In this document: positions 3,380-58,577 of the stretch, piece after piece
How the letters are laid out: the number at the start of each line of letters is the position of its first letter
Position numbering within the stretch: position 1 is the stretch's first letter
Origin: Cornus controversa
Taxonomy: Eukaryota > Streptophyta > Magnoliopsida > Cornales > Cornaceae
Length of the DNA stretch: 64,000 bases
Assembly: GCA_026545225.1 (NCBI GenBank)
Contig: CM048845.1
Coordinates: forward strand, 117,617,033 to 117,681,032
Direction of reading: 5' to 3'
Made by a program: the position numbers and the translations under genes
Notes under the pieces: generated by a model
Databases searched by the model: none
Seen by the model: the letters and a program-made list of their open reading frames with translations, nothing else
What the model was told of the DNA's origin: nothing

Positions 3380-6300
3380 TCATCGGTGCAGATAGTCACA
3401 CGATGCACCCTTCTTGCAGTACCCCCTCTCATGAAATTTACAAACTCGTTCTTTGAGAGGAGGCCTGGAATAACTTCCACCACCAACTGATGACTGGCAG
3501 CTCCATGAGAACCTACCCCTACCAAATCCTGAATCCCCAGCCTCAACAGCCCAGTCTCTTGGACCAGTAAACCTCTCACCACCATATTTTGGTTGACTCT
3601 CCCGCACTGTATTACCAGCTGAAACACCAAGATTTAGATTCATGTTTGCATTCCCAATTGCTATCTCCTGACTAGTTCCTCCTCCATCTATGTTCGTAAT
3701 TCTTTGAGATGGTTGACTCTCCCGCACTGTATTACCAGCTGAAACACCCAGATTCATGTTTGCATTTCCAATTGCTATCTCCTGACTAGTTCCTCCACCA
3801 TCCATGTTCGTAATTCTCTGAGATGGTTGACTCTCCCCCACTGTATTACCAGCTGAAACACCCAGATTCATGTTTGCATTTCCAATTGCTTTCTCCTGAC
3901 TAGTTCCTCGATCCATGTTCGTAATTCTTTGAGATGGTTGACTCTCCCGCACTGTATTACCAGCTGAAACACCCAGATTCATGTTTGCATTTCCAATTGC
4001 TATCTCCTGACTAGTTCCTCCATCCACGTTCGTAATTCCTTGAGCTGGTCCTCCACAGTCCAAGTCCATAACTTCTCCCCGAGCAGTATTTTTGTCAACC
4101 ATTTTCTGACTCGTGGTGGATGGTGCAGGAGGCTGGATATTTGAACCAGCTTCACAGTAATTCAGTGTTACATCAATGGGCTTTGTTTCTCCATCGACTT
4201 CGGCACTTGTAGAAGATTGCCCACCAGACCTCTTTACAGGATCAACATAACCCTGAGATGGCCCAAGTGGTTCATTTATCATTATAGATTCAGTAGGTAA
4301 CTGTATGTCAGCAGTGGAGCTCAAGGCATCACTTTTTCCAGGATCAGCTGTAGGGCTCAACCCCTCAATGGAACTAAAACTATCATTTCTAGAACCCTGA
4401 ATCAAGTCCCCACCACAGTTCATCACAGAAGTAGGGGAAGCCAAGCCGCATTGGGACTCCATCGCATCAACTTCAGCCAACAGATCTGAGACTGATTCCT
4501 CTGCCAAAGTGCTAAACTCAATGGTTTCAGTAACAATTGCCTGCCAACTAGATGCATTAGACGTAGGATGGGATGGAGAAGAATGAATAAGTTGCTCGCT
4601 ATTTGGCGTAGGAGAAGCAGCATGATCACTAATCAGTTCAGGCGCTTTCAATGAAGACATAGATGCAAGACCAGAGTCCATTTCCTCAACGGAAGGTTTT
4701 GTTGGAGTAGGAGAATATCCTCCCCATTCATCAGCTATGTCAGGTAGTTGTGCCCCATTTCCCACCACTGGACTAGAAGCACTGCTCCAGCTAGGGCCTG
4801 AATCTTGAACAAGAAAATTTGAAGACACGGATTGCTTGTTTTCAGTAGCCTCACCTTTCTCATCCCCATTGCTAGACTTTGGTGTGGGACTCGGCAGATC
4901 TGGAATACGTGAATCTTTCTGTGTTGGACTTGGCAGATCTAGAATATGTGAATCTTCCTGTGTGGGACTTGGCAGATCTGGAATATGTGAATCTTCCTGT
5001 GTGGGACTTGACAGATCTGGAATATGTGAATCTTCTTTTTGAACATTCGACAGAACAGACTGCTTGTTTTCAGAAGCCTGACCTTCCAATTCCTCATTGT
5101 TTGTCTTAGGTGTTGGACTAGGCAAATTTTGGATATCAATTCCAAGATTCTGTTCTGGCGAATCGGTTGACTTGGCCGCAGAAGCAAAACTGGATCTAGA
5201 ATCCCAGTTGTTGGAAGAAAAATTAACAGGTAAAGGTTTCCAGTTTTGTCCAGAAGATTGGCCTGAATGGCCTTGACCATTAGATTGGTTCTCATGACAC
5301 TGTCCACCTATAGGCTGAAAGGTTTCAGGTGAATTCAATTTTTCATGACTTGGACCAGAGTTCCATGTTTCGCCCTCTAGACCTCTTCCTTGATGTGATG
5401 CAGTTCCATATTGATGCCCAGAAATTGTGGAAGAGGGAAGCTGACTATGCACTTGGGGCTGGTCAGAACAAGAACTATTACCCTTGAATGAGTCCTGACG
5501 TTGAGAAGAACTTCTAGCCTCTACATCCTTGAAATTAACAACAGGTGTAGTCCAGTTGGAAGAATGTGAGCCCCAAGCATTGCTCCCCCCAAATTCATCT
5601 TTAGCATTCGAATGGGATTTTCCATCATTACCGTTCCAGCTTCCCTCACTTTGTTTGCTATTTAACCCAGTTGTATCCATACTCCCGCTCCACTTGCCAT
5701 CATGTGATCTAGTGTCAGAGGCACCTCCAACTTCCCGAGACTGTAAAGAAATCTCATACTGTGATGGCAACGCTTTATGGAACTGCCCATTCAATGCATC
5801 ATTCAAAAGTAAGGATTCAGTTTCTTCATCATTTATGCCCCATATTCTCATATCAGGTGGGAAGTATCCAGTTGTACTCCACTTACGCAGCTGCACCATA
5901 CAAAATGGTCCTTGAATCTTTCCACTTGGGTCCCGGTAGTGCCACAATTTGTCTGTTTCACAATCGTTGACAGATGGTGCCATCCCAATTGAGAGAGTTG
6001 CACTTGAAGTTTCTGATGCAACCCCAGAGAATGATCCAGACCCCACCACAGCTTGATTATTCCAATTACCAATCGCTGAACCAGCAGAATCAACATGATT
6101 TCCAGGTTTCTCCAAACCATTTGATCCACATGCATCTTTTCTCTCATTACAGGTAGGACCATCTTCTTTACCTGGGTAAAATGTAGTAGATATGTTTTTG
6201 TTTCGCTCACAGGTGATTAAATTTTTCAATGCCCTGCCACCTTTATCACTTGAAGTATCACCTACTTTTCGTGGAGATGTCGACTCCGTTCTATTTCTAC

Positions 6301-8752
6301 TGAATCCAGAATATTTTGGTCTCACATATTTATCTGCATATACACCAGCAGAGGTAACCACTAAGTAACAATAATGAAAAAAAGAACAAAACGAAACAAA
6401 CGGTCGGAAAAGATAAAGTTCATATCCATAAGGCAATGTGATGGACCTTGTTTCTTATCACTAAGTTCTCCACCACTTTCTTCAGATTCATAATTTGGAT
6501 CCATATTTGGATCAGCATGTACTTCTGGAATTTCATGTAGCCTGCGCCGATGTTCTACGGGTGTCTTCAGAAGCTGTAATTTCTCTACACACTCTCTAAG
6601 AGTAGTATTTGTCAAGGAATACCAAATAAATATTTCCTTCATGTAACATATAGCAGTAAGTATTAGGAATCACCTGCAACACTGTCAGTACTATGAAATC
6701 TTTAGTTCCTCTAATGCACTGTTGATTGCCATAATAAACATGAAAATGAATGAAAACTTGGAAGCTTAAGGTGGAATCGCCGTTGCACGAACCCAAGCTT
6801 TCTTTTCTTTATCTCCAACTTTTAGGCATTTGTATAAAGCATGAAGGTAACCTCTTAAGAAATGGTCATAAAGCAAGCCATATAGTAGAGAACGTTGGCA
6901 GTAAAGAAAAAAGAGAACCAAGATGCATAGACCATTGCTTGAATAGAGCATTGATGAATGAGGCAACATAATACAATAAACTATAATAGTTAGTTAGGTT
7001 TGTGAGAACTTGTGGTTCCCTACTTCACTAATTCCTATAATTCCCCCAAATCCCAAGGTTTGTGAGAACTTATGGTTCCCTACTTCACTAATTCCTATAA
7101 TTCCCCCAAATCCCACCACAGCAAGGCAGACTATTCATCTCAATCAACATCACAGGATATTCCATGTAGACAAGTTTTTGAAGAAAGGTACATCTGATCC
7201 AACATTATAGAGTAGGAATACCACTGAAAGATATTCCGTAAATTTATAAATTTTGGAGAGAGGTACACCTGGCCTAATGCATAGAATAAAACAATGGAAC
7301 CCTAACTTGCCCAATACATTAGCTAAAAAATAATGAATACTGGTACTTCACTGCAGCATATATGATGCTACATTCATTTTCTGAGCTGTAAATTATTTCA
7401 TCAGACAATAAGGTTAATTAGCTAATCTGAGTAACCCAGTAGTAAATAGGTTATGTCATAGCTAATCAACTGAACCTACCAACCCAAATTTCAACTTGAT
7501 TAACATTTATTAGTCAATAATTTAATTTTTTTGTCTTCCAAATTATAGTACTTTACTATTTTAAAATAGTTATTTTTATATTTTGAAAAAGAGAAAAAAG
7601 TCTTGACAGGTTGATCAGGCTATGTCAATTTTGGACCAGGTTTGCATTAATCATATCGGGTTCAGATTGGACACTTTTGGACCCAACCTATTGCCAGCCC
7701 TAAACAAGTAGCTCAAATTGAATTACAAAGTTTAGTAGGTTACTTTCAGAATGGTGTGAACCTATTCAACAATCTTCAATTAATTATAAAGAGACAAGAG
7801 TCATGGAATGTTTTACTTTGTACTTATCTTTTTTTTTTTTAATAAGTATTTTGCTCTGTACTCTATCTAGAATACATTAGACCGTAACTCTACATGTCTT
7901 TTCCATAACCTACTTGGCCTCTCTCTTTGACCTTGCAATATCTACAGCTCAAAATATGTAACTAACTATCTTTGCAATCATTTAACTCCATTGCACATGA
8001 AGAATCCAGCCTTCACTCAGCTAGTTATGAATGCAAAGTTCACTACAATAGAGTGGCACGCGCCCATCAGAACATACTTACTCCAGTTGCGCTTAATCTA
8101 TGGAGGAAAAGCACACTAAAAGTTTACCATAACTAAAATCAGCCTAGTTGGACATTTGTCCTAAATGTTAAACGTATATCAGGTGATATCATCTATTATA
8201 CAGCACCAGTAGTTCAATAGGGAATCATTAAAAACTTGTATAAGCAAGTTTTTTTTATTTTTTTCTCTCCTAGGGTTGCTTCAGCTGGGCTTTTAAAATT
8301 AATAATACCACATCTGAAAAAAACATTATTCGATTTTATTAAGCAACCAGTCAAAAATACGGTATCAAATAGTCAAAAGGATATTCTTTTTTATGCCCCT
8401 TTTCACTCGCTCTATCGCGAAGATGATTAAGCCGCAATATCTCCGTTTCCAGCCACTACATAAAAAAAATGGCATCATGAACAGCAGCAGGGTATGTTCA
8501 GTAAACAATCTCACAGTTTAAAACTTAGTTGAAACACTAAGCATGACAATATGAAGTGAAGAAAGATTGAAGCAAATTGGAAGAAATAAAAATTGGTCTC
8601 AACTTGAGATCAGGATGCATGATGTGCCATATTTTATGCATTACAATTGAAAGCTAAGAAACTTACGTCATTGAGTTTCACTGCCCGGAGTGCCATTGCT
8701 TTCTTCTGTATGTCACCCTACAGGCAGGCATGAATCTTCTTAGCAAAAAGCG

Positions 8753-8788
<36 letters not shown>

Positions 8789-11700
8789 TAGAAGCAACAC
8801 TAACATGCACTTACCACAGTCAACCGTTTAACGAGCCCACATTTTATACTCTGACGTAAACGTCCGCATTCATCCTGGAAATATTATAGAACATCAAAAC
8901 AAAGAAAGTGATAAATAAATAAATACTATCATGTAAAATGGTGCAGACTTGTATATTTTCAACAATGCTCCAGATTATCACACCTGATCAGACAGTTTGG
9001 AATACCCAAAAGATTGTGTATGAAATTAGAGTGCTCAGAATACAGAACATTATATACCCAAAATGGATGTCTAGAGATTTTAATTGTTCTTAAAATGAAA
9101 CCTTTTTCTAATATATAAAAATAAAGCTTTATGAAACCAATGCAATATTGTACAATCCGTGTTTTCCTGTGTTTCTTGGTTTTAAAATAAACCAATTTTT
9201 TTTCTTTTCTTTTCTTTTTTTCCTCTTTTTTCTTGGGTGATATATTCTTGGTTTTACAGCAATACCATGTCAGCCCCAAACTTCAGAAAAAGCTAGATGC
9301 CATATCCTTCTATTGGAAATATGTGATATTGATGGTTAAAATGAACCGAAAAAATTTACATTTCCGTTGTGTGGAGACTGAACTTAGCTACCTACAATTG
9401 AAAATTTCTGGAAAGACTGTTGCCATAAAAATAAGGAACAATGGATCAAAATAAGTGCCTTTAGAATGTTGTACGACAAATTGACAATAAAATACATAAT
9501 ATTGAACGTAAGACCTCTAGGCAATTTGCCAGTGCCTCAACCCAACTCGGCTACTCCATTGGGTTAATTGCCCACATATATCAAGAAAAACATTAAAAAA
9601 CTAGAAATTTATATCATTTTACTGTTTGGAGTCAAACAAAAATGAAACTAGGTAATAGGAATGTAGTTTGGTTAATCACCTTAGAGAACTCTTGATTTGA
9701 AATTGAATCAATAGATACAACCTCTTTCTTGTCTAGGTTTAATATATCGAGCATGATATCCACTGATCTTTCGCCGAGTTTATATGGCACAGCCACCTTG
9801 CTTGTACCTGATGCAAAATTTCAACCGTTTCACAAAGCATAACAACGAATGATTTCTCTTTCTTTTCTTCCTCCTCTAATCCTTATGACTAGAAATTGTG
9901 TGATTGGAAGTGAACAAAATTATTTAAAGAATTGCTGCTAATAAAAAGTTATGCACGTATACCTACAACTTGCACAAGCCTATACATATCTTGCTTCTGA
10001 TCGGTGCTGGAAATTCTTATTCGCACAATTGACCCAACAACCTTGTCATGGAACTTTTCATTATCTTCAATTAGACTCTCCATTAAATTACGCCGCAAGT
10101 AAATCAAGTTGATGTTGTGAACATCAATTGCAGCATATTCATCCAGATTAGGCTGTGGTACTCTTTCTTCACCCTTTTTACGAGTTTTACGTCTCTTATC
10201 ATTGCCCACAATCAGTAGGTTGTCATTGTTCTCATCAACCTCTGCAGGGCTCGCAACGGCATCAACAATGCTGCACTGAATAATGGCATTTTTCTGGGAA
10301 TCCTCCTTTATGAGAAAGTGAAATTCAAGAAGCTTTAACATTTCAAAATGACCCACGCGTGGTTTCCCAAACAGATTTTTAAGCCTCAAATCACAAATGA
10401 TTTGACTTTTCCGGCGAGGATCACGAAGATTATTTATCTTTATATAGTCTAGCAAAAGAGCCTGGACATCAAATTGAGATAGAACAGATGTATCACCATT
10501 CCTCATGTGGGCAACAAATTCCAAGAGTTCTTTAGATGCCCATTCCGTGCATCCAACTGAAGTTGTGCCTTTATCTGTACTTGATATATAAATGCTCAAA
10601 GAGTCCTTGTTGAGGAACTCCGGGTGGTCCTTGGTCTTTCTTCTTTTAGAACTATTTGCCTCCAGGAGTCCAGAGGAGCTGTCTGTAATAGAACCTTTGC
10701 CATCATTAGCACCATAATGTAAATCCAATGATTGCCCCTGGCAAACCATAGTGCCAGCTCCTTTCCAGGGATTCTTAGCTTGGGTGAGCTCATTTAAAGT
10801 TAAAGATAGCTTTCCTTTCAAGTAAATCCAGTATACCTTGAAAAGATACTCCCAGCTACTCTTGTCGTCAAAATCTACTTGAGCCTGCACAAGTTACACA
10901 GAAAGGCATGAAGATGGTAATAGGATAGCCAAAGAACTACAAACTGAAAGTATATGTTTGAGCCATTCTTTAAAACGAGTGAGATGCTACCAACTCCAAC
11001 ATCTCCTTACTCAGTACCCCCATTAACAACGAACCTACTTGTTTCCTTTTTCTTTTTATTTTAACTTTTTGATTTTATTTTATTTCCCTGCTGACGTCAA
11101 CACCAGCATTTGCGTATGTAGAACTGTTGCATTTCTTATCTTTATCAGTTCCTGTTGTCCTGATATTGCAATCTGTTTATCTAGTTTCAGATACAAGCAT
11201 TGCCAGCACAGAATGAATATGCTCACAAGTTGTGCCAAAGTTTGAAGGGAGCTTTAATTGACTTAACAAACTATTGTGTCCCAATACCTTTAATCAAAAT
11301 ATTAAAGCAAGAACATGATTAAGTATCAAGTAAAGTGGCAACCAAGGAAAAGTGCAAGGATGTCTAAACAAAAAGCGCACAAAAGGATCTAGCAAAATCC
11401 TTCTTCCCTGATCACAACAGAAATCCAGAAAGGACCACCTATCATCCACTAGCAAAACATAGAAAAGGAGTGACACGATGCAAGGAATGAGCAGTGCACG
11501 CAGTAGGAAATTTTAACTGCCATACTTGGAAACCGCAATTACATAATGAAATAGAAGGACAGATACTAACTAAACAGCCAGAATATATCAATTGCAAAAG
11601 CAATAACCAATCCATGGCGAACATGTTTTAAGATGAATGCAGCAGAATAACATGATGGCATAAGATAAGAAGCAATCCAAAAGGTAAAGCGAATGGACAA

Positions 11701-14700
11701 TAAACCAACTACTTTTTAAGACATACCCCTAGATTAAGCTAGACTCCAATTACTCTCTCTAGACTCATTGCGTGGATCCACATTGGCCAATGACTATTAG
11801 CCTTAACGGAACTTTGGACCTACACATATCATATTTACAAACATCTTTATAACGAATCACTCCTGGCACAATAATAGTTGTCTTCTCCCTGTGGTAAATA
11901 TGGTCTATTCCCAACAGAGTCACCCAAATGAAAGTGAAACACAACCCATGGGTCACCCAATTAGCAGTATGCGAGTCACCCAAAGATAAGTGGTTCATTC
12001 CCCAATGGTCACCCAACTAGCAGTCTGTAACCAACTTTGACACCCAAGGTCTTCAAATGATCTTTTCCCTAATGAGTTGCCAAAACAAGTGTACAAAGAA
12101 CTCTCTATAGAGTCATCCAAATAATAGTGGCTTTTCCCCCACAAAGCTACATGAAAATGTACGACGTTCTTCTCTATGGAGTCACCTAAACAATAGAGAT
12201 GTTCCCCATAAAATCACCAGCACAGTGTTTACGTATGGAGTCCTCCAACTAATAGCATTCAAGTATTATTTTCCCCACAGAGTCACCGGTATTACACAGT
12301 ACACGAAATCTTCTGTTACGGTCACACATAACGGTATCAAACACAAAATCACCCTTGGCAATGTGTTACAAGAGATTGTCCGAGAAGAAGTCAACCAATA
12401 TTGGCAATATACCTACATAGTCTCCCAACAAAGAGTGTACAAGATCCCTCCCCCATGGAATCAACCAGATGAGCATCCAAATGATCTTAATACCAGTCAC
12501 TAGACACACTGTGCACAAGGTCCTCGTCAGGAATGCACCCATAAAAGAAACAGAAAAAATAAAAATCAGTTTGTTCACCGTGGGTCACCCTACGGTTTGC
12601 AATGGAGACACCCAAATAGAGAGAGAGAGGACCTAACTCAGCTTGAGTTCATCTTGATTATCAAGAGCTTGATCCAACTTCCAAGCAAAGGAAATAATAG
12701 TTTGAGGAAGCAATTACAATGATAAACTCGATCATATGCCAAAGACATAAGATTGTACATACCGTTTCCTTGTTTCCTTGTTGATTTTCAATCAGCATAA
12801 TAGTTCTCATGCATGTTGTGCAAAAGCCTTTGTTCCCTCTTACACATAAGTAATCAGCATCTTTGGTGCATCCCTTGCACAATGAATATGTGCAAGTGTA
12901 GCACATATAATGGGCAGCCTTCTGACAGTTACTACAGATATGCCAACCTGAAATGTATTACAACGCCAATAAATTAGTTAATCATGCAATCTTAAGATTA
13001 GCTCTCATATTAATAATGGAGATTCAAGTATAAAAAAAAGAAACAAAATAGACATCAGAAAAGATTGTGGCCACCTGGAGGAATAAAATTTAGTTTCAGT
13101 AAAAAACTAGAAGGTCAGATATGCAAGCCACAAATTACCATACATACAATTCGACATTACAAGGAATAATGATCTCAACACGAAGAAGGATAATGTAACC
13201 AGTAATACAGACATTCAAGTCTACCAAGGAAAAATTTAAACAGATAACACCCAAAGAACCTGAACCGAAATTTCAACCCTGTTGACAATACCCCACTACA
13301 TAACACCCAAAGAACCTCTAGATCTTCAAAGGATAGACAATCAAAGGCTAGATAATCTCAAAGGGACATAAAGAATGAAAATAGTATACAGTTTTATAGA
13401 AGATCAAAACACCATTATCCAGAAAACAAAAAAGAAAATTATACAGAATTTGTAGAATAAAAGAAATCCATTTTTTTTTTATAACCTATACAAAACGTAA
13501 TCTGACAATCATCTTAGCATTTTATTGACTTCTTTATAAGATTTTGGAATGATTTACTTCGAATTGGCATCATGAAAGAAAGGACTGGAATTAACTGCCA
13601 CAAGATGTTATGGACAGAACGCCATATCTAGGTTCCAAATTAACCCTAATCAATAACCCACTTGCTGTTTCAACTAGGGATAAAAGCCAAGAGAAAAGCT
13701 AGAATAAATCTCCTTTGTAGCAATGCTAAACAGGGATTCAAAGTTTGACCTATCATAGACAATTCATTAAATTCCGATCACGATGTAATTTCTGCACCAA
13801 ATGTTTCATTATTTATTTTATTGTCACTTCTTTTTTTAGGAGGAGAACACATTAGTAACAACCATCACCCTGTGAAGTGTAACTGTTGCCCAAAAAGAAT
13901 ATAATGTTGCTTGTCTACAATTTTGGGGCACTACAACAACTAAAACAAAAGACATATTCTTATTTGAGGTGCCTCTTGCTCACCATTCGAACTTCATAAC
14001 TAGCTTAAAAAAATTATTAATTCATTTTTTTTTACTAAATGAACTTGCAAGCACAAAATGAAATGTATTGACATTACTCATTGCATCCCACCTATGAAGA
14101 AGGGTGCCAAGAGGGGAAGACTGGAGATAGACCTAGCAATTTGTATTATTTTGCCTGAAGTGACTGCTTACAGACTCGAACTAGTGCCCTCAACAAGAAC
14201 ATGCTAAATGATTGGAAGCGACAAATAAAACACCCATGCTCAATAGGCTCAAATCTGGACTTTTAGGCTCTGTTTGGTAGAGTGGAAAAGAAAAGAAAGG
14301 ATAACATTATTAATGAGAGAAAAGAAAAGAAAGGAAAGGGAAGAATAGTGTTAAATTTTTATCGTGTTTGGTTGATTAGTAAAGGAAAAGAAAGGAAAGG
14401 ATAATTAACATGTTTGGGGAAAGAAAGGAAAGTAAACAATTTAAATATTTTACCATTATACCCTTTTATATATAAAAGAACAAATTTTAGCTTTTATCAA
14501 AACAAGGGCAAAATTGGTATTAACAAAGTTTCATTAAAAAAGGTAGTCTTTCCTTCCATTTCTTCCCATTTTTGGAAGGATAACAAAAGCTACTATTCAC
14601 CCTTAATTTATCCCTCCAAATCCTTTCATTTCCTTTCCTATCCTTTAAAATTCTCATACCAAACACACAAAACCGTAACCTTCCAAATCCTTTCTTTTCT

Positions 14701-16011
14701 TTTCCTTCTACATCTTTCCTACCAAACTGACCCTTCACCTTGACTTGAACAGTGATATTTCACTTATCAAGCAATCCAGGCTGGAGCATATTGAAAGTGG
14801 CTTCTCTTCAAAACATCGTGATGGAAATATGCACAATGTCCAGATTTGCAAAAGGTTGTGATGGAGAAATGCACATGTCTAGATTGGCAGTGCTGATTAT
14901 AGTTGTAGCTGTAGAAGCAATGATTATGCTTGTACATTTCTCAAGTATACTGATGGCAGCGATGGTGAGATGCCAGTGACATCGGTAGCATTTAGATTTT
15001 TGGCAATGGTAACTTGTCCACACTATCACACAGGATGCTGAATGCAGCTCAACCTCCAACCCCACCCATCATGCAGCTTTCTGAAGCTCCGCAAACTTCT
15101 ATGAAGGGCCATAGGTACAGACTATTTGTATAGACTTGTACATCAAAACAGTCAATGTAAGCCATAGAATTAACAGTAACTTTGCTCCAAGAACATGTGT
15201 TTTGCTTAAAATTTACGGTGGTTTTAATGCTATTATAATCTAGATTGACTGTTTTTCTATAGATTTCCTGAACTTCAATTTAAGTTTGCTTCTCTTTTTT
15301 TAAAAATAAAAATTTCATTATGTTCCCCCGGATTGCTTGATAAGTTTCATTCACATAATTATAATGCTCAGTCTAAGAAACCCAAATCAACCATAATTAG
15401 TGAAAAGATAAGTGGAAGAACCATTCAAGAAAAGCAAGAGAGAAATTGGGTTCAGTACCATGGGAAGTGGAAAGCTAAAAGTTACTTTGAGACGAATACT
15501 AAGTTCAATGGAAAATGTACTATTTCTGATAAGAATAGCATAAAATATAACTTATCAAAAAAAAAGAATAGCATAAAATATAGAAAATTTTAGGGTAAAC
15601 CGATATGCATACTTTTGGAAATAACTGAAGAATTTGAAAGTTCTGTAAAAATCACTCTGACATCCCTTGTCAGAGTTAACACCGTTAAAGTCCTACAAGC
15701 ATTTACCAAATTATCCTAATTGATGTTGCTTGTAAATTACCCCTATCCAACACACGACCTCTCTTTCTCCTCCCCATCACCACAACCCCTATTGCCGCCG
15801 CCGCCCTCTTTTTCCACTGCTGCGACCACCACTGGTGTTGCCGCCACCCCCACACAATTGTCACATTTTTTTTTTGTTTTGAACAATCTTCCAAGTGTTA
15901 CTAACAGATTTCTCTCAGTAACACCCGTGCACTGAATCAAACTCTACAAACCAAAACACCTTTTCTTCTTTCCTAATTCAGATAAATTGTGTGTGTGTAT
16001 GTATGTGGGTC

Positions 16012-16044
<33 letters not shown>

Positions 16045-16448
16045 GAAAAACTATCAAATAGCTGAAAGAAATTAAACGACATTCACCATTCAACAAAACA
16101 ATTAGAAATATAAAATTCGTCATCTGAACTGGCAATACTTTTTCATACATAAACATTGTGCTTGGCAAGTGAAATATGTTTCAAAAAGATTCATGGGTAT
16201 ACTGTTGAAACAGAATATTGATGATAAAGGTTCTCAATTATGGTAAACCCCATGGCCACTTCATGAATTTGCAAACCTTCTATGTTTTTACCCAGTTGAT
16301 TTAGTGAAGTTGGAAACTCCCAAATGAGGAAAAAACACTAATCTGCATAGCAAAAGATGAATTAGTTATTGAAATGCTAGCCATGCGTGAACAAAATCTC
16401 ACAAATCTGGCAAATTGTAGTGGTGAAATCTGAGTACATCGCGAAGCA

Positions 16449-16499
<51 letters not shown>

Positions 16500-19400
16500 A
16501 CATCCCTGAAATTTATAGGGATTCTGCAAAAACTGAAGATAGAATGTTAATTTTCTGTGGATGCCGACAATGAGGGGTGGTGATGGGTATTTAGGGGCTT
16601 TTTTATTCGACAGAGTTTTAGGGAGAGGAGAGCTTTATACCGAGAAGAAATTGGTGAAGAGAGATGGTTGGAACACAGGGCTGATGGAGGTTTGAGAGGG
16701 AGAGAAAAGCAAACAAGGAGATGGAGATGAGAGAATAGAGAGATTGGTATGGTCAATGGTGGCAGCAGCAGAGCAGTGATGGAGGGTGGCGGAGGAGGGG
16801 TTAGTGAGAGAGAAGAAAGGAAAACATTTTCTGATATATATATTAGGTATATTAAACACATTATATTATTAATGGATAAATTAATGAAACTATTTACACA
16901 CACATGTATATAATTTTCATTTATATATTAATAAATAAATTATTGAGTATTTTTTGGTCAAAGAAATAGGCTTAAATTCGTCATGTTACGATGGTTAGTA
17001 GGGATAAAGAAGTAAATTCATTTATTGAAAGGCATTTTTGGTATTTGAAAAAATTTGCTTAACAGCATTAATATTTCTTTAATGGAGATGGAGTTGACTT
17101 TGATTTCATTGAATCTCAGGGAAGATTAGTGATTTTTCAAAACCTCAAGGGAGGTGAGAGTAATTTACTGTGGGAAGTAGAAAGCTAGAAGTAAGGATGC
17201 ATAATGGGCAGGGCCGGGCTGCAGTATTGGGAACCCAGGCCTGAGCCCACCGAGCTTTGACTGTTCAACGGGCCGGGCCTATAGGCATTTTAAGAATCCC
17301 AAGTCCGGCCCTTGGGCTTTGAGATAGTGGGCTGCAGCCCTAGGTTTCAGACATGGATAAAAGTGTATCGTTTACAGTTTGTAAGTCAAGCATGAAACTT
17401 GAAATAAATGATGCAACTATCATGATAGTTAAGTGCTAATCACACGAGATATCATGAATTAAGGCCATTTGAAATGTTCACCATTGTGATTTGTGTTTGG
17501 CAATGTCTTTTGTGCATTCAAATAGTGCGCCATGGAACTATAGATTCCAGATAGATACTAAGATGCGAGAACCTGGTGTATGAAGAATTTAAACTTGCCT
17601 TATTATATAACCACAAGGCTAAAGCAACCTGTTTGACCAAAAGGACTTGTAGTCCAATGGTATAACCTCCCCATCCTCAAAGGGGAGGGGAGGGGTTCGA
17701 GCCCCGGTGTGGGCAAAAAAGTGTGTAAGTCCCCAACTAGGGAAAAAAAAAAGAAGCTTGTTTGGTTGTTGAGAGATTGGAAGAAAATAGATAGATCTGG
17801 AATCATTACTGTCTTATTAGCATTCTTCCATTGTGTGATGTTATGAGAATTACCACTCCTCTTACACGTTTAAGTATACATCTAAACCTTTGTTCTGCAA
17901 TTTATAATTTAAGTATAGATTGCTATTTCTTTTGTTGAGAAAAAGATTTGTTGAGTTGAGTAAATATATTAAGCCTTAAAACATAATTTGAACTTAAAAG
18001 AGATTAGAAATGATGAAGTGGTACTCTGATTTATGATTCACCTATTATTGACGCCAAAAATAATGTGACTGGTAAAATGGGAAAGCATGATTTATTTTTT
18101 TCCCTTAACAAAGTTGTGAGTGTGTGTGAGAGAGAGAGAGAGAGCACTGCAACGGAAATGAATATACTGACTCAAAGTTATATTTTTTGTTTTGAAGAAA
18201 TGGACATGCAGGCTAGTGACGGATTTTGGTGGGTGTTGGCGGGCTTATTGGGTGGGCTTTTGGGCCAAGCAAAGGGCCAATCCCTATACCCAGGCCTTAC
18301 CCATCCTCTTATAGGGCTGGGTCGGGCTAGCCCTCCACAAGCTCGGGCTCAAGCCGGCCTGTGAGCTCCGGATCATTTTTGACCCCTTACTTAGCTAGAA
18401 GTTACTTTGAGTCGAACAATAAGTTCAATGGAAAATGTACAATTTGTGATAAAAATTGCATAAAATATAGAAAAGTTGTAGGGTAAACCGATATGCATAC
18501 TTTTGGGAATAACGGAAGAATTTGTAAGATTTTATGGATTGCTACTAAAGAAATGGCTTCAAAAGGACAGAAATTAAGAAAATTATATAAGTGCATTTCT
18601 TGAAAGTCTTCCCTGCTTTTCTAGAACTTTTTCAAAAACTTCCCTATGAGTATGGTTGGACCGCCCACCACATTCCAAAATGGTTCTTAATTGTTTCAAC
18701 TTAATTTTATTGAAAGATTTGCATCAGCTTCGTAAACGAGTTTCTAGAGGAAGAGAATTCACCCCTCATTTAAGTCTAAACAATTTCAGAATGGACGTGT
18801 ACAGCTTCATAGATGGAAATGTAAGAGGCTGCCAACTGATCAAACCTCTATTATTGAATGAACCTCAAGAAAATAAGATGGCAATATTTTAAGTTCTTAA
18901 AAGCTACGACTTTCACTATATGATGCAAGATAAATAGAGCAAAATCAAACCAAATGCCAAAAAATACCATAAATGAACTTTGAAGAATCTACATAAAGCA
19001 CATACCACAAATGCCAACAAATAACATAAATGAACTTTTAAGAATCCACATAAAGCACATACCGCAATTCCATCTAGCCTTGGATCGAAAGAATGCCTCA
19101 TCCCGCTTAATACAAGAAGGATGGTATGCCTTAGGACAGCCCCTAACAAGCAATAACCAAGAATGAATAATCAAATAAAGTACTGACCCTACTGAATGTG
19201 TTCAGTTTTCATTTCAAAAGTACCTCCCTCCCAGCAAAATCGCAGCAAATTTTGTTCTCAAAAGTGCTTCCAAGATGCTAGGAAATAGAAATCTAAATTA
19301 AGGAACGCGAACTAAGCCCTAACAAATCGACTCACCGGCGATCGCAGAGCACGAGACTTCCACCATCGAAGCATATAAAACAGACGTCCTCCTCTTCCTT

Positions 19401-19721
19401 GTTCTTCTTCGGAGGCGGCGATTTCACCTGGCCCTTGGGCGGCCGACCTCGCTTCCTCTTCGCACTGGCCCCATCTTTCACTTCCGCGTCCGTCTTCGTC
19501 TCCACACCGGCCGTTGAAGGACCACCTTTTTGGCCACCGACTACAGATTCCCTATCCACAACCGCCGGAGCTCCGACGAGCTGCGAATCGTCGAATTCGT
19601 GAATCGGCTCACATCCGTGGACGTTCGGGAGCTCTACGGTCTGCACAGTATCGTCGAAGTTTTGGTTGTGGGCTTCCATGTGAGGCCTGTAGAGACCTGA
19701 AGCTGAATCTACTTCTTCCAT
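3380..19721 (-). CDS. PHD-SWIB-Plus3-GYF-CCCH zinc finger protein (NERD / C3H44-like), 10 exons, 1663 aa
   Basis: Exons in coding order: 19721-19336, 19142-19063, 12947-12763, 10884-9963, 9807-9680, 8874-8815, 8717-8667, 8455-8385, 6601-6447, 6333-3380. They sum to 4992 nt with phase kept at every junction. The order of parts is: an AT-hook-like KRKRGRPP; a PHD finger from C114 (CFICFDGG...LCDRRGCPKAYHPSC) with a Cys-rich extension to about residue 205; SWIB/MDM2 at about 329-408; Plus-3 at about 468-600; GYF at about 810-862 (LWHYRDPSGKIQGPF); and a C-terminal CCCH finger (C-x7-C-x5-C-x3-H). A long Ser/Gly/Asn-rich region contains two sets of protein repeats and a few WG dipeptides. Arabidopsis NERD, in this family, binds histone H3 and AGO2 in RNA-directed silencing. 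The role here is inferred as nuclear chromatin or small-RNA silencing. Eight introns are GT-AG; intron 8 appears to be U12 AT-AC. The neighbouring UPF0183 gene suggests the orthologue is At3g51120 (C3H44). Confidence 0.9.
3590..4040 (-). repeat. Coding minisatellite: four copies of a ~37-aa unit in the CCCH gene
   Basis: Four nearly identical units of about 105-118 bp lie in the last exon. Each encodes a unit built around GTSQE-AIGNANMNLGVSAGNTV-ESQPSQRITN. Differences between copies are mostly single substitutions and one to two extra codons. The high identity at DNA level points to recent expansion inside the reading frame. No domain is recognised in the unit. Confidence 0.9.
4886..5041 (-). 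repeat. Coding 39-bp tandem repeat (QEDSHIPDLPSPT), about four copies
   Basis: A 39-bp, 13-codon unit is repeated about four times in the last exon of the CCCH gene. It encodes QEDSHIPDLPSPT with small changes. The flanking sequences PDLPSPTPK and NLPSPTPK look like older degenerate copies. The unit is Pro/Ser/Asp-rich and probably disordered. Confidence 0.85.
6602..8384 (-). other. Probable U12-type AT-AC intron (intron 8 of the CCCH gene)
   Basis: On the minus strand exon 8 ends ...CATAAAAAAGA at 8385 and the intron begins ATATCCTTTT at 8384, a perfect minor-spliceosome AT-AC donor. Just before exon 9, positions 6619-6611 read TTCCTTGAC, a consensus U12 branch site. The branch A at 6612 is ten bases from the terminal AC at 6603-6602. 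Exon 8 ends in phase 2, so GA joins T to give Asp, followed by LRECVEKLQLLKTP. That continues the family sequence (family consensus, from memory, GRRKELRECVEK). No nearby GT donor keeps the homology. The intron is 1783 bp and contains a 60-bp tandem duplication at 6996-7115. Confidence 0.85.
6996..7115. repeat. 60-bp tandem duplication
   Basis: Two adjacent copies of a 60-bp unit begin AGGTTTGTGAGAACTTRTGG and end in CCCCCAAATCCCA. They differ at about one position. They lie inside the U12-type intron of the CCCH gene. No coding meaning is seen. Confidence 0.9.
8757..8784. repeat. (AT)n microsatellite
   Basis: An uninterrupted AT run of about 14 units lies in intron 6 of the CCCH gene, between exons 7 and 6. 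Confidence 0.9.
11700..12640. repeat. Degenerate tandem repeat rich in GAGTCACCCAA and TTCCCC words
   Basis: Within intron 3 of the CCCH gene the words (A/G)GAGTCACCCAA, ATAGTGG and TTCCCCA recur at intervals of roughly 50-70 bp from about 11760 to 12600. The phase and spelling drift. This looks like an old minisatellite that has diverged. The short open frames across it are not conserved between copies, so I do not treat them as coding. Confidence 0.65.
14265..14734. mobile_element. MITE with AGGCTCTGTTTGGTAG-type inverted ends
   Basis: The left end reads AGGCTCTGTTTGGTAG and the right end is CTACCAAACTGACCCT, an imperfect inverted match. The body is rich in GGAAAAGAAAAGAAAGG on the left and its complement on the right, so the 470-bp element is almost a long hairpin. 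It has no coding capacity. I could not identify a clean target-site duplication, so the superfamily (hAT or PIF/Harbinger) is open. It lies in intron 2 of the CCCH gene. Confidence 0.75.
15460..15644. repeat. Direct repeat copy A in intron 2 of the CCCH gene
   Basis: This ~185-bp stretch (GGGAAGTGGAAAGCTAAAAG ... GATATGCATACTTTTGGAAA) recurs as copy B. Copy B begins near 17170, is interrupted by a TIR element, and resumes at 18395-18525. The copies are roughly 90% identical by eye. A TIR-like element (15645-17169) sits exactly between the two copies. Confidence 0.75.
15645..17169. mobile_element. TIR-like DNA element between the two direct repeats
   Basis: The left end reads GTAAAAATCACTCTGACATC and the right end, inverted, reads GTAAATTACTCTCACCTCCC. 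This is an imperfect inverted repeat of the kind plant Mutator-like or other MITE families carry. The 1.5 kb body has no transposase motif. It contains an AT microsatellite (16020-16044) and a CT tract (16452-16498). Superfamily is uncertain because the target-site duplication is not clear. Confidence 0.5.
16452..16498. repeat. (CT)n microsatellite, ~23 units
   Basis: Nearly pure CT dinucleotides run for about 47 bp. The tract is intronic on the minus-strand gene, where it reads as GA. Confidence 0.95.
17193..18392. mobile_element. Non-autonomous hAT-like element in intron 2
   Basis: The element is bounded by an 8-10 bp duplication: AGCTAGAAGT at 17183-17192 and again at 18393-18402. Its ends read AAGGATGCATAATGGGCAGG on the left and GACCCCTTACTT on the right. 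GGGCCGGGCC words are dense on both sides, a habit of plant hAT elements. There is no transposase frame. It splits copy B of the direct repeat described at 15460-15644, and it carries a SINE-like insertion at 17640-17752. Confidence 0.7.
17640..17752 (+). mobile_element. tRNA-derived SINE-like element
   Basis: The sequence has a box A-like TAGTCCAATGGTA (17650-17662) and a box B-like GGTTCGAGCCC (17694-17704). A short 3' body and an A-rich tail (17743-17752) follow. Imperfect flanking words CCTGTTTG (17629-17636) and CTTGTTTG (17757-17764) may be the target duplication. A tRNA gene is excluded because the cloverleaf stems do not close. Confidence 0.7.
18951..19064 (-). repeat. 57-bp tandem duplication spanning the exon 2 splice donor
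   Basis: Two 57-bp copies, 18951-19007 and 19008-19064, differ at a handful of positions. The copy next to exon 2 provides the used donor at 19062-19061. The second copy carries an equivalent donor, GTATGTGC, at 19005. Because 57 is a multiple of three and the intervening frame is open, use of the second donor would add 19 residues. Confidence 0.9.
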
Positions 19722-34120: not shown

Positions 34121-36790
34121 ACATGAATTATCTCTAAATTGGTTCCAAAAATAAGTATGTCATCCACGTATAGACATAATATCACATGATGTCTATTATT
34201 CTCCTTAAAGTATACATATTTATCGAAATCATTGATCTTTAAACCATATTTTAGTATTGCTCTATCAATATTTTTGTGTCATTGCTCAGGAGTTTGCTTA
34301 AGGCCATATAATGATTTAACTAATTTACACACTTTATGTTCTTGGCCTTTAACTATAAAATCCTCTGGTTGCTCTATATATATCTTTTCTTATAAGTTTT
34401 CATTAAGAAATAAGATCTTAACATACATTTGATGAATAACTAAAATATGTAAAGATGCTAGGGTTACTAAGATCCTAATGGTAGTGATATTAGATACAGG
34501 TGAATATGTGTCAAAGTAATCTATATCTTTCTTTTGTGAACCCTTAGTTACTAGCCTATCTTTATATTTGTCTATACTCCCATTAAGTTTTAGCTTTTTT
34601 TAAAAACCCATTTGCATCCTATGGTTTCCAGGAGGCAAGTTAGTTAATACCCATGTATTATTTTGAATTATAGATTAAAACTCACTATTTATTGCCTCTT
34701 TCTAAAATGGAGCGTCTATGAAAGTCATGGCTTCTTTATAAGTAGTAGAATCTCCTTTTACTAAGAAAGTATAAAAATCATCTCCAAAATTTTCTCTACT
34801 CTAACTCTCTTACTTCTTCTAAGTTCTTGTGGTTCAGTTTCTTCCTCTAAAGAGGTACTAGTAGATGAAATATCACTTGAAGATGATTTATCAATTACTG
34901 GTTTAGGAATCTTTGATTTATAGAAAAAAATATTTTTTTTAAAAGTGACGTCTCTAGATTCGAAAATTGTATATTAGAAATCTCACTTATTTCAAAATTT
35001 ATTACTAAGAATCTATTGGCGCTACTATTCTTGGCATACCCTAAAAAGATGGTGTCTATAGTTTTAGGACCTATCTTCTTCCTTTTAGGTTCAGGTATAA
35101 AAACTTTAGCTAAACACCCCCACACTTTTAGAATTTTAACATTAGGAGCTCTATGTTTCCATATCTCAAATGGAGTGTTATTATTATCACCCACAATTAC
35201 TTGATTAAGTATAAAACATGCAGTGAGCAATGCTTCCCCCCACAAATTTATGGGGCACCAGAACTCGAGAGCATTGAGTTAATCATATCCAAAAGAGTTA
35301 TATTATTCCTTTTAGCTACCCTATTAGATTGTGGTGAATATGGAAGAGTTACTTCATGTATGATTCCATGTTCTTCATAAAAATATTTAAACTCATTAAG
35401 ACTATATTCACCACCTCTATCAGATCTAAGTCTTTTGATTTTCTTCTCTGGTTGATTCTCAACCTCATTTTTGTTCACTTTAAATTTCTCAAAGACCTTA
35501 TCTTTAGTTTTGATCAAGTATAGATAGCAATACTTGGAGCAATCATCAATGAATGTCACAAAGTATTTATTTTCACCTCTAGTTGGAGGTCTATTAAAAT
35601 CACACACATCACTATGTATGAGTTATAAGAGGTGAGTATTTCTGTCTACGGACTTATAAGGTTTCTTATGTTGCTTAATTTGTACATATATTTTACACTT
35701 ATGTTTGAAATCAACATAGGATTTGGGTACTAAACTGAGATCCATCATTCTTTTAATTTTCTTCAAGCTCACATGTCCTAATCTCTCATGCCAAGTGTCA
35801 TAAGATTCAACAATAAAAACACGAGGAAAATTTTTATTGATTTTTAGAATCACATTCAATTTGAACAAGCCTTCACTGACATATCATTTTCCAACAAAAA
35901 CATTATTTTTTGTAATAACAACTTTATTAGATTCCAAAACAACTTTGTATCCTTGTTGAACTAAGGACGACCCACTAACTAGATTTCTCCTCATTTCAGG
36001 AATATATCGCACTCCCTTTAAAGTTAAGATCTTTCCATATGTCATCTTTAAGTCCACATCTCCAATACCGTGTACTTGTGTGATTGTATCATTTCCTAGA
36101 GTTACACCTCCTCCACTTGAGTTCTGATAAGATTTAAAATAACTATGCTTAAAACAAACATGTACACTAGCATTAGAATCTAACCATCAATCATCATTAT
36201 GATATGTGAAGTTTATACTTGGATACCTTATGGAGGGTTCGCTTGAGTTTTCTTGATCCATCAACATATTTACATGATCTTTTGGATCTCTTTCGTTCAA
36301 ATTTGTCTTGGGCTTGTAAGGCTCAGTCCTTTTGTAGTGGCAATCATTCGCCACATGATTGATCCTTCCACAAACATAGCATGGTTTGTCGCATTTGCCT
36401 TTAGCATTTTTGAGTTTGTTATTATAATGATTATTATAATTGTTGCGAAAGTTTTGACTCATACGATAGTAGTTCTTTTTGTTATATTTTTGAAGTGTTT
36501 CCCTCTAGGTTGGTAACGACCTTTATTGTTGGAATTATTAGAATTTCAGTGTTTCCAACTAGGTTCACTTTAGTTGATTTATCACTTTGGTTGATTATTG
36601 GCCTATGACTTTTTTCAACTCTAATGGAGTTAATAACTTGGGTCAAGGTCAACTTTCCTTACTTATGTCTAAGAGATTTATAAAACTCAAACCAACTAGA
36701 AGAAAGTTTCTCTATTAAACATGACACTTTAAAATCTTAAAGGCAAAGATGGATCTTACTTTATTTAAAATTTTAATAAAATATGTCACT
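34121..36790 (-). mobile_element. Partial Copia retrotransposon relic (gag to reverse transcriptase)
   Basis: Reading right to left there are: a gag part; a CCHC zinc knuckle (CYVCGRINHVANDC, about 36340-36390); a pre-integrase block (ESYDTWHERLGHVSL, about 35770-35830); and an integrase core (TFIDDCSKYCYLY ... LRSDRGGEY ... LPYSPQSN, about 35300-35590). These are followed by the integrase C-terminal LKVWGCLAKV block, and a reverse transcriptase segment with the YVDD motif near 34160-34180. The order is typical of Copia. It is incomplete, has no recognised LTRs and is broken in several places. The TRIM-like element adjoins the end of its reverse transcriptase part. Confidence 0.85.
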
Positions 36791-39850: not shown

Positions 39851-40904
39851 CAAATTGTTAGCAAACCACCCATGCAAGGTGGCATAATCTGATGGTGTCA
39901 ACACAACCCTAGGTGGATGGGGGTGTCATCCACCAACAAAATGGGTACTTACATTACCCATTAGGCAATATTTAAACAAAGTGTACTTTTCTTCCTTCTT
40001 GTCTTCCTCCAAATTTGGAGGGATGAAAATTTATGAAAGAAGAAGGATGACTCATCCATCCTCTTTTCTCTTTTTTCTTTGCATCCTCTCTACCAAACGA
40101 AGAAAATTTGCGATTCCCTTCTATCTTCCCTCCACTCCCATAAAGGAAACTCTGTAGTAACATTTGACATCCACATCTTAATCATTTAACTACATTAAGA
40201 TTGTTCTAGCATAGTTACAATTCTCATAGTTTGGAGTATTTGGGCACATATATACATGCAACACATTCACTCTGTCACACTTTTTGAATGCATGAAAATA
40301 ATTGGAATAGTTTGGCTTTGAGTTATCAATAGAATTATAGGAAAATGAACTTCCTCATGGATAATTGTTTTAGTGGATTACTATCTAGGTTGAATTTGAA
40401 TAATTTTGTTTTGAGTTTTGTGGCATATTTTCCATTTGTAGAGGACAAGTGCCGATTAAATGTGTTTTTCTTTTTGGGTTGGGGTGTTTGAGCACACAAA
40501 TATCCACGACATTGAAAAGCACACAGATATCCATGACATTGAACCTCCACTTAAATATTCAGTTTCATGATTTGTAAAACCCTGATTTTTTGCTACGATT
40601 TGGACTCTTTGACATGGAAATGAACATGTATTGGCTAAAGCCATGATGTGTGGCCTCTGTCGTTTAAGACAGAGGCCCATATGGCAGCATCATTTTTGAT
40701 TGGTATTTCCTTGAAAGAAAGAATTCCTCAAAAAAATTCCATGCAAATCAGCAAGAACATTCCACAGGAAACTTCATGTTTTCCAGGCTTTGCCTTGCGC
40801 TTTATTCCCAAGAAGTGCTCAACTTGAAAAAAGATATAGTATCAAAGTCTGTATTTGGTGCAGATGAATAATAAAATAATATATATATATATATATATAA
40901 ATTA
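39851..40904. other. Stretch without a recognisable gene
   Basis: Mostly AT-rich sequence with a short TTTCTTCCTTC-rich patch near 39990-40130 that mirrors the composition of the MITE at 14265. An AT microsatellite lies at about 40878-40898, just upstream of the PPR fragment. Confidence 0.4.
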
Positions 40905-41216
40905 AAGCCAGAGAGAGATGTTGTCTCCTGGACCTCACTAATTGCAGGGTTGATAGCTGATGGACATAGTAGTGATGATTTTAAGATGTTCTATGAGATG
41001 AGAAAGGAAGGTATTAGGCCAAATGAATTTACAATTGCTACTGTCTTGAAAGGTTGTTCAATGTGCTTGGATTTAGATTTTGGGGAACAGTTACATGCCG
41101 AAGTAATCAAATCTGTTGCATTTTCAATTTTTTTTGTTGGGTCTGCTCTTGTTGGCCTTTATGCAAAATGTGGTGAGATGGAAATTGCAAACAAAGTGTT
41201 CTTCTGCAAAATGTAA
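40905..41216 (+). pseudogene. PPR protein gene fragment (PLS type), pseudogene
   Basis: The frame reads KPERDVVSWTSLIAGLIADG, then MFYEMRKEGIRPNEFTIATV, LKGCSM and FGEQLHAEVIK, FVGSALVGLYAKCGEMEIAN, KVFFCKM and a stop. This is about three tandem pentatricopeptide motifs, as found in organelle RNA-binding proteins of the PLS class. Family members run 400-900 residues, whereas this piece has only about 100 codons. There is no upstream start, targeting peptide or downstream E/DYW tail, and microsatellite DNA abuts it. It looks like a duplicated or captured fragment that is no longer functional. Confidence 0.85.
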
Positions 41217-53550: not shown

Positions 53551-55272
53551 TCACAAGTCTGTAAGCCATTCATAGCCGTAAATAAAATCAAGTGAAATAA
53601 ATGGTTCGGCCTCTTGTTGGGTGAGCACCCTGGACCATGACACCCTCCCTTGAAAATCAGCCCCTGGTCCTGAACACTTGAATTCTCCGTAAAATACAGT
53701 CCTGCAAAGGAATGTGGTTATTGTTTGAATTAGTTATGAAAAGCTCAACAGATAATATAGTGCAGTGTTAGGCTCTGAATCTAAAACATTCGTGAAGGTA
53801 ATCTAATAGACCATATCAGTTCCTTAGCATTTGACAGTGTCATATGCCTCCAGTGTCTGTTTGTGTGTGTGTGCGTGAGAGAGAGAGAGAGAGAGAGAGA
53901 GAGATACATAGCAGTATACATTTCCCTGTTCTTATCTCCCCAATCAGACCATCCTCTAGGAGTGATGATTCTGTCCATGTAAGTGTAAGCAAAAACAACC
54001 CTAGAGAAAGTGCCCCATGCCCTGCCCAAGTAGAGGGCACCTGACCCAGTGACCTTGCAGTGGATGAAGGAAAAGCCGGTTTCTTCAAGCAAGCTCTCCC
54101 TCTTCTGGGCTGTCAAGGCCCCATAGCTGTTGGTAATGGCATGCAGATGGCAGTGTTGATAGAGGGAGCGACCGTTCCCAAATATGAAATCCACAGAACC
54201 TTGGATATAACAGTCCCTGAAGTAATGCCTGCCTGTGTGATCGTAAAGGGTGTCTTGTGCTCCAATAAACTTGCAACCTATAAAAGCTGCTGTATCCGCT
54301 GAGATTCGTAGCGCCACTGCTTGCTTTCCTAATGCCCCTGATGGTGGCGATGGTGCTTTGTTCTGTAATCAAACATATAATCATATTTTTGCACTATGCA
54401 TCTTTGTTTGCAGGATTGTAGTCTTTTGTTTTATAGTCAAATGCAATCTTAGGCCATTGACATGCAGGATTGTAGTCTTTTGTTTTATAGTCTAATGCAA
54501 TCTTAGGCCATTGGCATGCCTGCCTGTTCTTGACTATGCTGACTCATGTGAGCATGTCATTTTATTGAATTGGCATTACTAACCTTGAAGGTGATGTTCT
54601 TTGCAATGAAGTAAGGAGAATTAATGGCGACCGTTGCAGAATCAAAGGTACCCAATGGTTGCCCATTCTGTCCGGTCCGATCTGCTGTGTCGTCCCACTC
54701 GATAATGGTCTTGTCTGCACCTGCTCCTTCCACGCTAATGTAAGCCATGGTCATAGGAACCTCAACCTTCTCCCTGAATTTTCCATCCAATTTACAAACA
54801 TTTTTAATCAGACAGGTTTAATCCATTACTAGTCAATCTTCGTATACATATAAACACTTGAACAAAACCAACAAATACATAAAAAAAAAGTGAAGTAGAT
54901 TTACTCTATCTATTACCTGTAAATACCTGCACTAACTGAGATAACCACTCGGCAGTTATTGATAATTGGAAGAGAATTTATGGCTTTTTGCACTGTAACA
55001 AAATCTCCTAAACTTGGGTTTTTATTCACTTTTATGGTTAAGCAAGGCTTGAACTTGTTCTTTGCTTTCTGAAAGAGGGAATCGTTGAAAGAACCCATTT
55101 TTTTAACCAAATTTTGATGGGCTTGTTCAATAACAACCAACCCATTTGGATTATAAGATGGACTCGTGCTTTGGATCAATAATATCAACAAAAAGAGCTT
55201 CAATATCATTGTAAACTCTATGGACATGGACAAGGTAACAGTACTTTTGGGTTTCTTGAGTGAGGAGAACAA
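53551..55272 (-). CDS. Pectin methylesterase without PMEI pro-domain, 4 exons, 379 aa
   Basis: Exons in coding order: 55272-54917, 54773-54584, 54362-53920, 53701-53551. They total 1140 nt, all GT-AG and in phase. The enzyme demethylates cell-wall homogalacturonan. All the family signatures are present: GIYREKV, QAVALR (Q196), GAQDTLYD (Q218, D219), DFIFG (D240) and LGRAWG (R296, W298), so the catalytic Asp pair and Arg are kept. A hydrophobic signal peptide ([18 protein letters not shown]) lies near residues 22-39. Met16 or Met22 may be the true start, because the first 15 residues are not hydrophobic. The short N-terminus lacks the inhibitor-like pro-region, which makes it a group II enzyme similar to Arabidopsis PME53 in size. 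The last exon ends [14 protein letters not shown]. Confidence 0.95.
53877..53904. repeat. (GA)n microsatellite beside a splice donor
   Basis: A GA run of about 14 units lies in the last intron of the pectinesterase gene, about 15 bases inside the donor at 53919. On the coding strand it reads as CT. Confidence 0.95.
54410..54519. repeat. ~55-bp tandem duplication in a pectinesterase intron
   Basis: Two successive copies of TGCAGGATTGTAGTCTTTTG ... AATCTTAGGCCATTG lie in the second intron of the pectinesterase gene. They differ at two or three positions. Each copy includes a TGCAG word that could act as a cryptic acceptor only on the other strand. Confidence 0.9.
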
Positions 55273-58500: not shown

Positions 58501-58572
58501 TCCGTTGTAGTCTAGGTGGTTAGGATACTCGGCTCTCACCCGAGAGACCCGGGTTCAAGTCCCGGCAACGGA
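58501..58572 (+). tRNA. tRNA-Glu (anticodon CTC)
   Basis: A 72-nt cloverleaf has acceptor stem TCCGTTG/CAACGGA and D arm GTCTAGGTGGTTAGGATA (box A). The anticodon arm CTCGG-CTCTCAC-CCGAG has CTC at the centre, and the T arm is CGGGTTCAAGTCCCG (box B). Every stem pairs fully. It has no intron. A run of five T at 58578-58582 supplies the RNA polymerase III stop. Confidence 0.97.
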
Positions 58573-58577
58573 AATTC

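Follow-up and report, generated by a model that had tools for sequence, protein, structure and literature searches.

Does the minus strand of this locus carry a genuine minor-spliceosome AT-AC intron, or do the letters at two of its exon borders resemble the signals of such an intron by coincidence? Introns of this type are rare. The counts given in PMC5716242 sum to 81 AT-AC introns among about 119,000 in representative Arabidopsis transcripts, an average of about 0.06% across plant genomes is stated in PMC6310983, and AT-AC introns are given as 26% of the U12-type introns of Arabidopsis in PMC7367187. The initial annotation had warned that automatic predictors usually miss such introns. This warning agrees with PMC5716242, where the genes predicted ab initio with AUGUSTUS for Arabidopsis Nd-1 are reported with zero non-canonical introns, and the absence of such introns from that set backs it. 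The window analyzed here is the whole stretch of 64,000 nucleotides (C1:117617033-117681032 of the 771.7-Mb assembly), and all coordinates below are window positions unless another region is named.

Gene model and domain organization

Judged from its sequence, the gene around the intron is a NERD-type PHD/SWIB/Plus-3/GYF/CCCH gene on the minus strand. The rebuilt coding span (19721..3380) runs from a start codon at 19721 to a stop codon at 3380 and contains 10 coding exons and 9 introns. Exons 1 to 7 are located at 19721-19336, 19142-19063 (80 nt), 12947-12763 (185 nt), 10884-9963 (922 nt), 9807-9680 (128 nt), 8874-8815 (60 nt) and 8717-8667 (51 nt). They are followed by exon 8 (8455-8385, 71 nt), whose 3' end reads AAAAAAGA, exon 9 (6601-6447, 155 nt), which starts with TCTTAGAGAG, and exon 10 (6333-3380), all on the same strand. 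An open frame of 1663 codons passes through all of the joined exons. Eight of the nine introns are bounded by GT and AG, and intron 8 is the sole AT-AC intron of the gene.

The initial annotation had described the product as a PHD-SWIB-Plus3-GYF-CCCH protein. SWIB, Plus-3, GYF and CCCH were recovered in this order with Pfam, and all of them pass the cut-offs; the PHD assignment stays below its threshold, with a match at residues 105-158 (best model, 22.2 vs 23.9 bits; PF00628, 19 vs 24 bits). The E values within residues 1-871 are 3e-23 for Plus-3, 8e-15 for SWIB and 8e-13 for GYF, and the CCCH match (1e-6) lies within the final 31 residues. From the exon lengths, the junction of exons 8 and 9 falls in codon 628, about 50 residues past the Plus-3 match (474-577). 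Sequence matches to solved structures were obtained for the RTF1 Plus-3 region and for one marginal chain, and the junction is crossed by none of them. NERD is connected to AGO2 through GW/WG, and the chain encoded here contains four GW/WG dipeptides only. In Arabidopsis, NERD (AT2G16485) is described as a protein thought to aid small-RNA-guided DNA silencing, with a PHD that binds histone H3 (PMC9699677, PMC13132833).

Two coding tandem arrays were observed in exon 10, in the C-terminal half of the gene. They occupy positions 3590-4049 and 4882-5035 on the minus strand. In the former, a unit of 114 nt (38 residues) recurs about 4 times; in the latter, a unit of 39 nt (13 residues, EDSHIPDLPSPTQ) is present in 3.9 copies. 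A further tandem duplication, of 57 nt (18951-19067, minus strand), runs across the end of exon 2 and contains a second copy of the GTATGTGCTTTATG donor region of that exon. The repeated GTATGTGCTTTATG region lies just downstream of exon 2 and may act as a decoy donor.

Splice signals of intron 8

Intron 8 (8384..6602, minus strand) is 1783 nt long and interrupts the frame in phase 2; its assignment to the U12-type AT-AC class is drawn from the letters, the gene model and the paralogues. It starts with ATATCCTTTT (longer stretch, ATATCCTTTTGA) at 8384, directly after AAAAAAGA, and finishes with TTCCTTGACAAATACTAC (longer stretch, TATTCCTTGACAAATACTAC). The consensus letters of U12-type introns are RTATCCTTT for the donor and TTCCTTRAY for the branch site. 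The 5' splice site ATATCCTTT (8376..8384) conforms to the former, and the branch-point sequence TTCCTTGAC (6611..6619) conforms to the latter. The sole A of the branch motif is placed at 6612, and the last base of the 3' splice site AC (6602..6603) lies 10 nt past it. Joining 8385 to 6601 preserves the frame, and the joined exons encode D-L-R-E-C-V-E-K at the junction, where the bases permit no sliding of the border. The Arabidopsis counterpart of this stretch is presumably KELRECVEKL. The initial annotation had placed an AT-AC intron at exactly these coordinates, with an in-phase join and these signals, and the letters, the frame and the gene model agree with it.

How much weight the motifs can bear was estimated within the window and in 100 simulated first-order Markov windows, with the spacing of donor and branch site (intron length) set to 60-6000 nt. 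The donor pattern RTATCCTTT has 4 matches in the window (2.59 expected), the branch pattern TTCCTTRAY has 3 (4.67 expected), and a YAC close to a branch site is present once (0.96 expected). Of the 100 simulated windows, 14 contained one or more perfect sets of ATATCCTT, TTCCTTRAC and AC (mean 0.19), and 58 contained a looser donor/branch set. The bare motif pair, which about every seventh random window is expected to contain, is weak evidence by itself. In the real window the pair of intron 8 is the only donor/branch combination within 60-6000 nt on either strand. At a fixed boundary, the joint chance comes to about 3e-8 when it is calculated from the motif frequencies of the window, in which these very sites are included, and to 1.4e-8 when it is calculated from base composition. 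Only the exact placement of both signals at exon ends that are fixed by other means makes the observation strong.

Exon lengths of the Populus gene

One such means is the NERD gene of Populus tomentosa (PtoNERD), whose structure was derived from a cloned cDNA aligned to the genome (PMC5475392). In Table 1 of that paper, exons 3-10 measure 80, 188, 931, 128, 60, 51, 71 and 155 nt. Exons 2-9 of the window measure 80, 185, 922, 128, 60, 51, 71 and 155 nt, and their borders had been fixed before the Populus table was consulted. Six of the eight pairs are equal in length (exons 2, 5, 6, 7, 8 and 9 of the window with exons 3, 6, 7, 8, 9 and 10 of PtoNERD), and the differences in the two unequal pairs (185 vs 188 nt and 922 vs 931 nt) are multiples of three. 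Because the PtoNERD exons are 71 and 155 nt long, the orthologue predicts the intron ends exactly: counting 71 nt from the start of exon 8 and 155 nt back from the end of exon 9 leads to 8384 and 6602. This likeness of the two exons beside intron 8 is one of exon lengths. The domains named for PtoNERD in PMC5475392 (SWIB, Plus-3 and GYF) are all present here as well, with the PHD of the present protein remaining sub-threshold.

Paralogues in the same genome

The assembly was searched with the protein encoded by exons 8 and 9, and at least six matches were obtained, namely the two exons of the window and four matches at three other places. The corresponding regions are located on C9 (L007), C4 (L008) and C2 (L009), and the count of three paralogues is a lower bound. 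In each of them a donor directly follows the 71 nt of exon 8 ending in GA; it reads ATATCCTTT in C4 and C2, identical to the window at 9 of 9 bases, and ATATCTTTT in C9, identical at 8 of 9. TCCTTGAC lies 10-11 nt ahead of the final AC in all four copies and is followed by an in-frame exon 9. The branch site of C2 is TTCCTTGAC at a distance of 10 nt, and that of C4 and C9 is ATCCTTGAC at 11 nt; the first base of the motif is therefore A, not T, in two of the four copies. The branch distances over the four copies are at or just under the optimum of 11-13 nt that is given in PMC3584512. With its end set at the first AGGT within range, exon 9 measures 155 nt in C9, 155 nt in C4 and 143 nt in C2, and the joined exons 8 and 9 are open in every copy. 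The initial annotation had proposed to look for conserved U12 signals at the matching intron of orthologues, and such signals were present in all three of the same-genome paralogues found.

Any two copies share 8-9 of the 9 bases of the donor nonamer, and the ungapped identity between copies over bases 10-40 of the intron is 0.19-0.39. We considered the reading that the intron flanks have diverged to chance in all copies and rejected it; it holds for ungapped comparison only, as a gapped alignment of the C9 and C4 introns reaches 73% across the first 150 nt and 79% across the last 47 nt. The gapped comparison of the window with C2 gave several pieces, one of which spans 125 nt close to the 3' end (67%) and none of which lies at the donor. 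No alignable intron sequence was obtained between the pairs window/C2 and C9/C4 with blastn at E values up to 0.01. Exon identity is likewise highest within these two pairs, at 0.83 (exon 8) and 0.87 (exon 9) for window/C2 and at 0.86 and 0.85 for C9/C4. Since C9 and C4 align at the intron start, and the members of each pair do so near the 3' end, the four copies cannot be counted as four independent pieces of evidence. The signals are nevertheless common to two lineages with diverged intron bodies, which is most simply explained if the intron predates the split of the pairs. The AT-AC intron is probably older than the duplications behind the four copies.

Some differences among the copies are local. 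The first base of exon 9 is T in the window vs G in the three paralogues, so that the junction codon reads D vs E, and the paralogues encode E-L-R at the junction. The C2 copy reads HLCVQESEKG in exon 8 (L009 4331-4401), vs HLRDRASEKG in the other copies, and its exon 9 is 12 nt shorter, yet ATATCCTTT, TTCCTTGAC and AC are retained. The C9 donor ATATCTTTT (L007, intron start 3449) is one base off the other copies, and this change is possibly the first step of a decay of the U12 signal. A 60-nt tandem duplication with 98% identity lies within intron 8 of the window (6996-7115, minus strand), and both of its units align to one single stretch of the C2 intron. Outside this genome, relatives were sought in viral_contigs (4 pattern matches) and genome_contigs (50 pattern matches); none of these encodes a relative, as expected for a plant gene.

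Alternative splice sites and intron retention

Other splice sites could in principle be joined at this place. With the AT donor kept, four ends besides 6602 are available, namely an AC at 6605, an AG at 6596 and two out-of-frame AGs. The AC at 6605 is in frame, lies 7 nt from the branch A and would give a product one residue longer. Among the four, only the AG at 6597-6596 (6596..6597) is a serious candidate. In this reading the U12-type donor and branch site are the same, and the main acceptor is the AG (an AT-AG intron), or both acceptors alternate. This AG preserves the frame and lies at a distance of 16 nt from the branch A, and the paralogues carry GCTTAG at the matching place. However, its use would shorten exon 9 by 6 nt to 149 nt, against 155 nt in the Populus table, and would drop the L-R that is coded there in all four copies; the product of the window gene would lose two residues and read KKEECVEK instead of KKDLRECVEK. 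AT-AG combinations are moreover described as disfavored in PMC3584512, and we regard this acceptor as very unlikely to be the main one or to alternate with the AC. That an ordinary U2-type GT-AG or GC-AG intron is spliced here and the AT-AC signals are coincidental is a further reading. Direct joins that keep exon 8 and add no exon were enumerated, with donors in exon 8 or in the read-through that ends at the stop at 8353 and with acceptors from the stop at 6672 down to position 6500. Among them are 24 in-frame GT/GC-AG joins; an ab initio predictor could pick one of them, for example 8360..6596. However, none of the 24 yields exons of 71 and 155 nt. On a rough plant matrix, the GT donors of the in-frame joins lie at about -3 bits, vs -1.5 to 6.2 bits for the eight GT-AG introns of the gene, and the best of the GC donors (8410) reaches 2.1 bits with its C not penalized. 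Retention of the AT-AC signals in all four copies found also speaks against a coincidence, which we consider extremely improbable.

A different possibility is that intron 8 is real and is slowly removed or deliberately retained, so that the amount of full protein would be governed by the activity of the minor spliceosome. The retained RNA would then be led to decay or be translated into a protein of 638 residues without GYF or CCCH. An in-frame TGA within the intron (8351..8353), which is reached on retention, ends the frame 34 codons from the start of exon 8, and by count the product would have 638 residues with the PHD, SWIB and Plus-3 parts and without GYF and CCCH. U12-type introns are reported to be less efficiently removed, with a possible effect on expression, in PMC5716242 and PMC2952598. 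However, a stop is to be expected in almost any intron that is retained, and the stop in intron 8 is thus no sign of regulation by itself; slow or deliberate retention appears unlikely. The more specific proposal, that the intron has been kept in the family as a dosage valve whose slow, stress-sensitive removal sets the amount of the full-length protein or of the GYF-less 638-residue form, is a speculative one to which we give little credence. If it were true, minor-spliceosome activity would be coupled to RNA-guided DNA methylation.

Probable splicing mechanism and comparison with known introns

We conclude that intron 8 is very probably (about 0.97) a genuine minor-spliceosome, U12-type AT-AC intron of a NERD-type gene. 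The call is convincing because the Populus exon lengths and the paralogue signals both fit, and splicing would be carried out by the minor spliceosome of this plant. In U12-type introns, U11 and U12 recognize the donor and the branch site, and U6atac then replaces U11. Here U11 would pair with ATATCCTT and U12 with TTCCTTGAC, and the A at 6612 would be left free as the branch nucleotide. U4atac/U6atac/U5 would join next, and the exons ending in GA (8385) and starting with TCTT (6601) would be ligated in phase 2.

Intron 8 belongs, as an ordinary and conserved case, to a rare class that is already known, and presents no new splicing biology. It shares with plant U12-type AT-AC introns the U12 donor and branch site, the AC 10 nt past the branch A and the position as one among the GT-AG introns of the same gene. 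Nothing qualitative differs from them, and the length of 1783 nt and the 60-nt duplication are local details. Other non-canonical introns, such as GC-AG and U2-type AT-AC introns, likewise break the GT-AG rule. However, the donor and the branch site are U12-type here, and these are the defining features according to PMC3584512.

Knowledge of splicing itself is unchanged by this intron. What is gained is a secure model of the gene for a chromatin-silencing protein, which annotation restricted to GT-AG would truncate or distort, and four paralogous AT-AC introns that are available within one genome. The locus also offers a simple, testable connection from the minor spliceosome to RNA-directed DNA methylation. 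Among the literature matches listed, no paper ties this gene to a U12-type intron, and the intron may well stand already in plant U12 catalogues such as U12DB or ERISdb.

Other features of the window

The whole window was searched with Rfam at the gathering threshold, and one tRNA and nothing else was found; it is a tRNA-Glu(CTC) gene at 58501-58573 on the plus strand. A PPR-repeat stretch is located at 40875-41216 (plus strand), and a pectinesterase-like stretch at 53781-54368 (minus strand). Retrotransposon fragments occupy 34895-36504 on the minus strand, where a CCHC knuckle, a Pol beta-barrel domain, an integrase core and an SH3-like domain lie in separate open frames; from the domain order we take them to be Ty1/copia-like.
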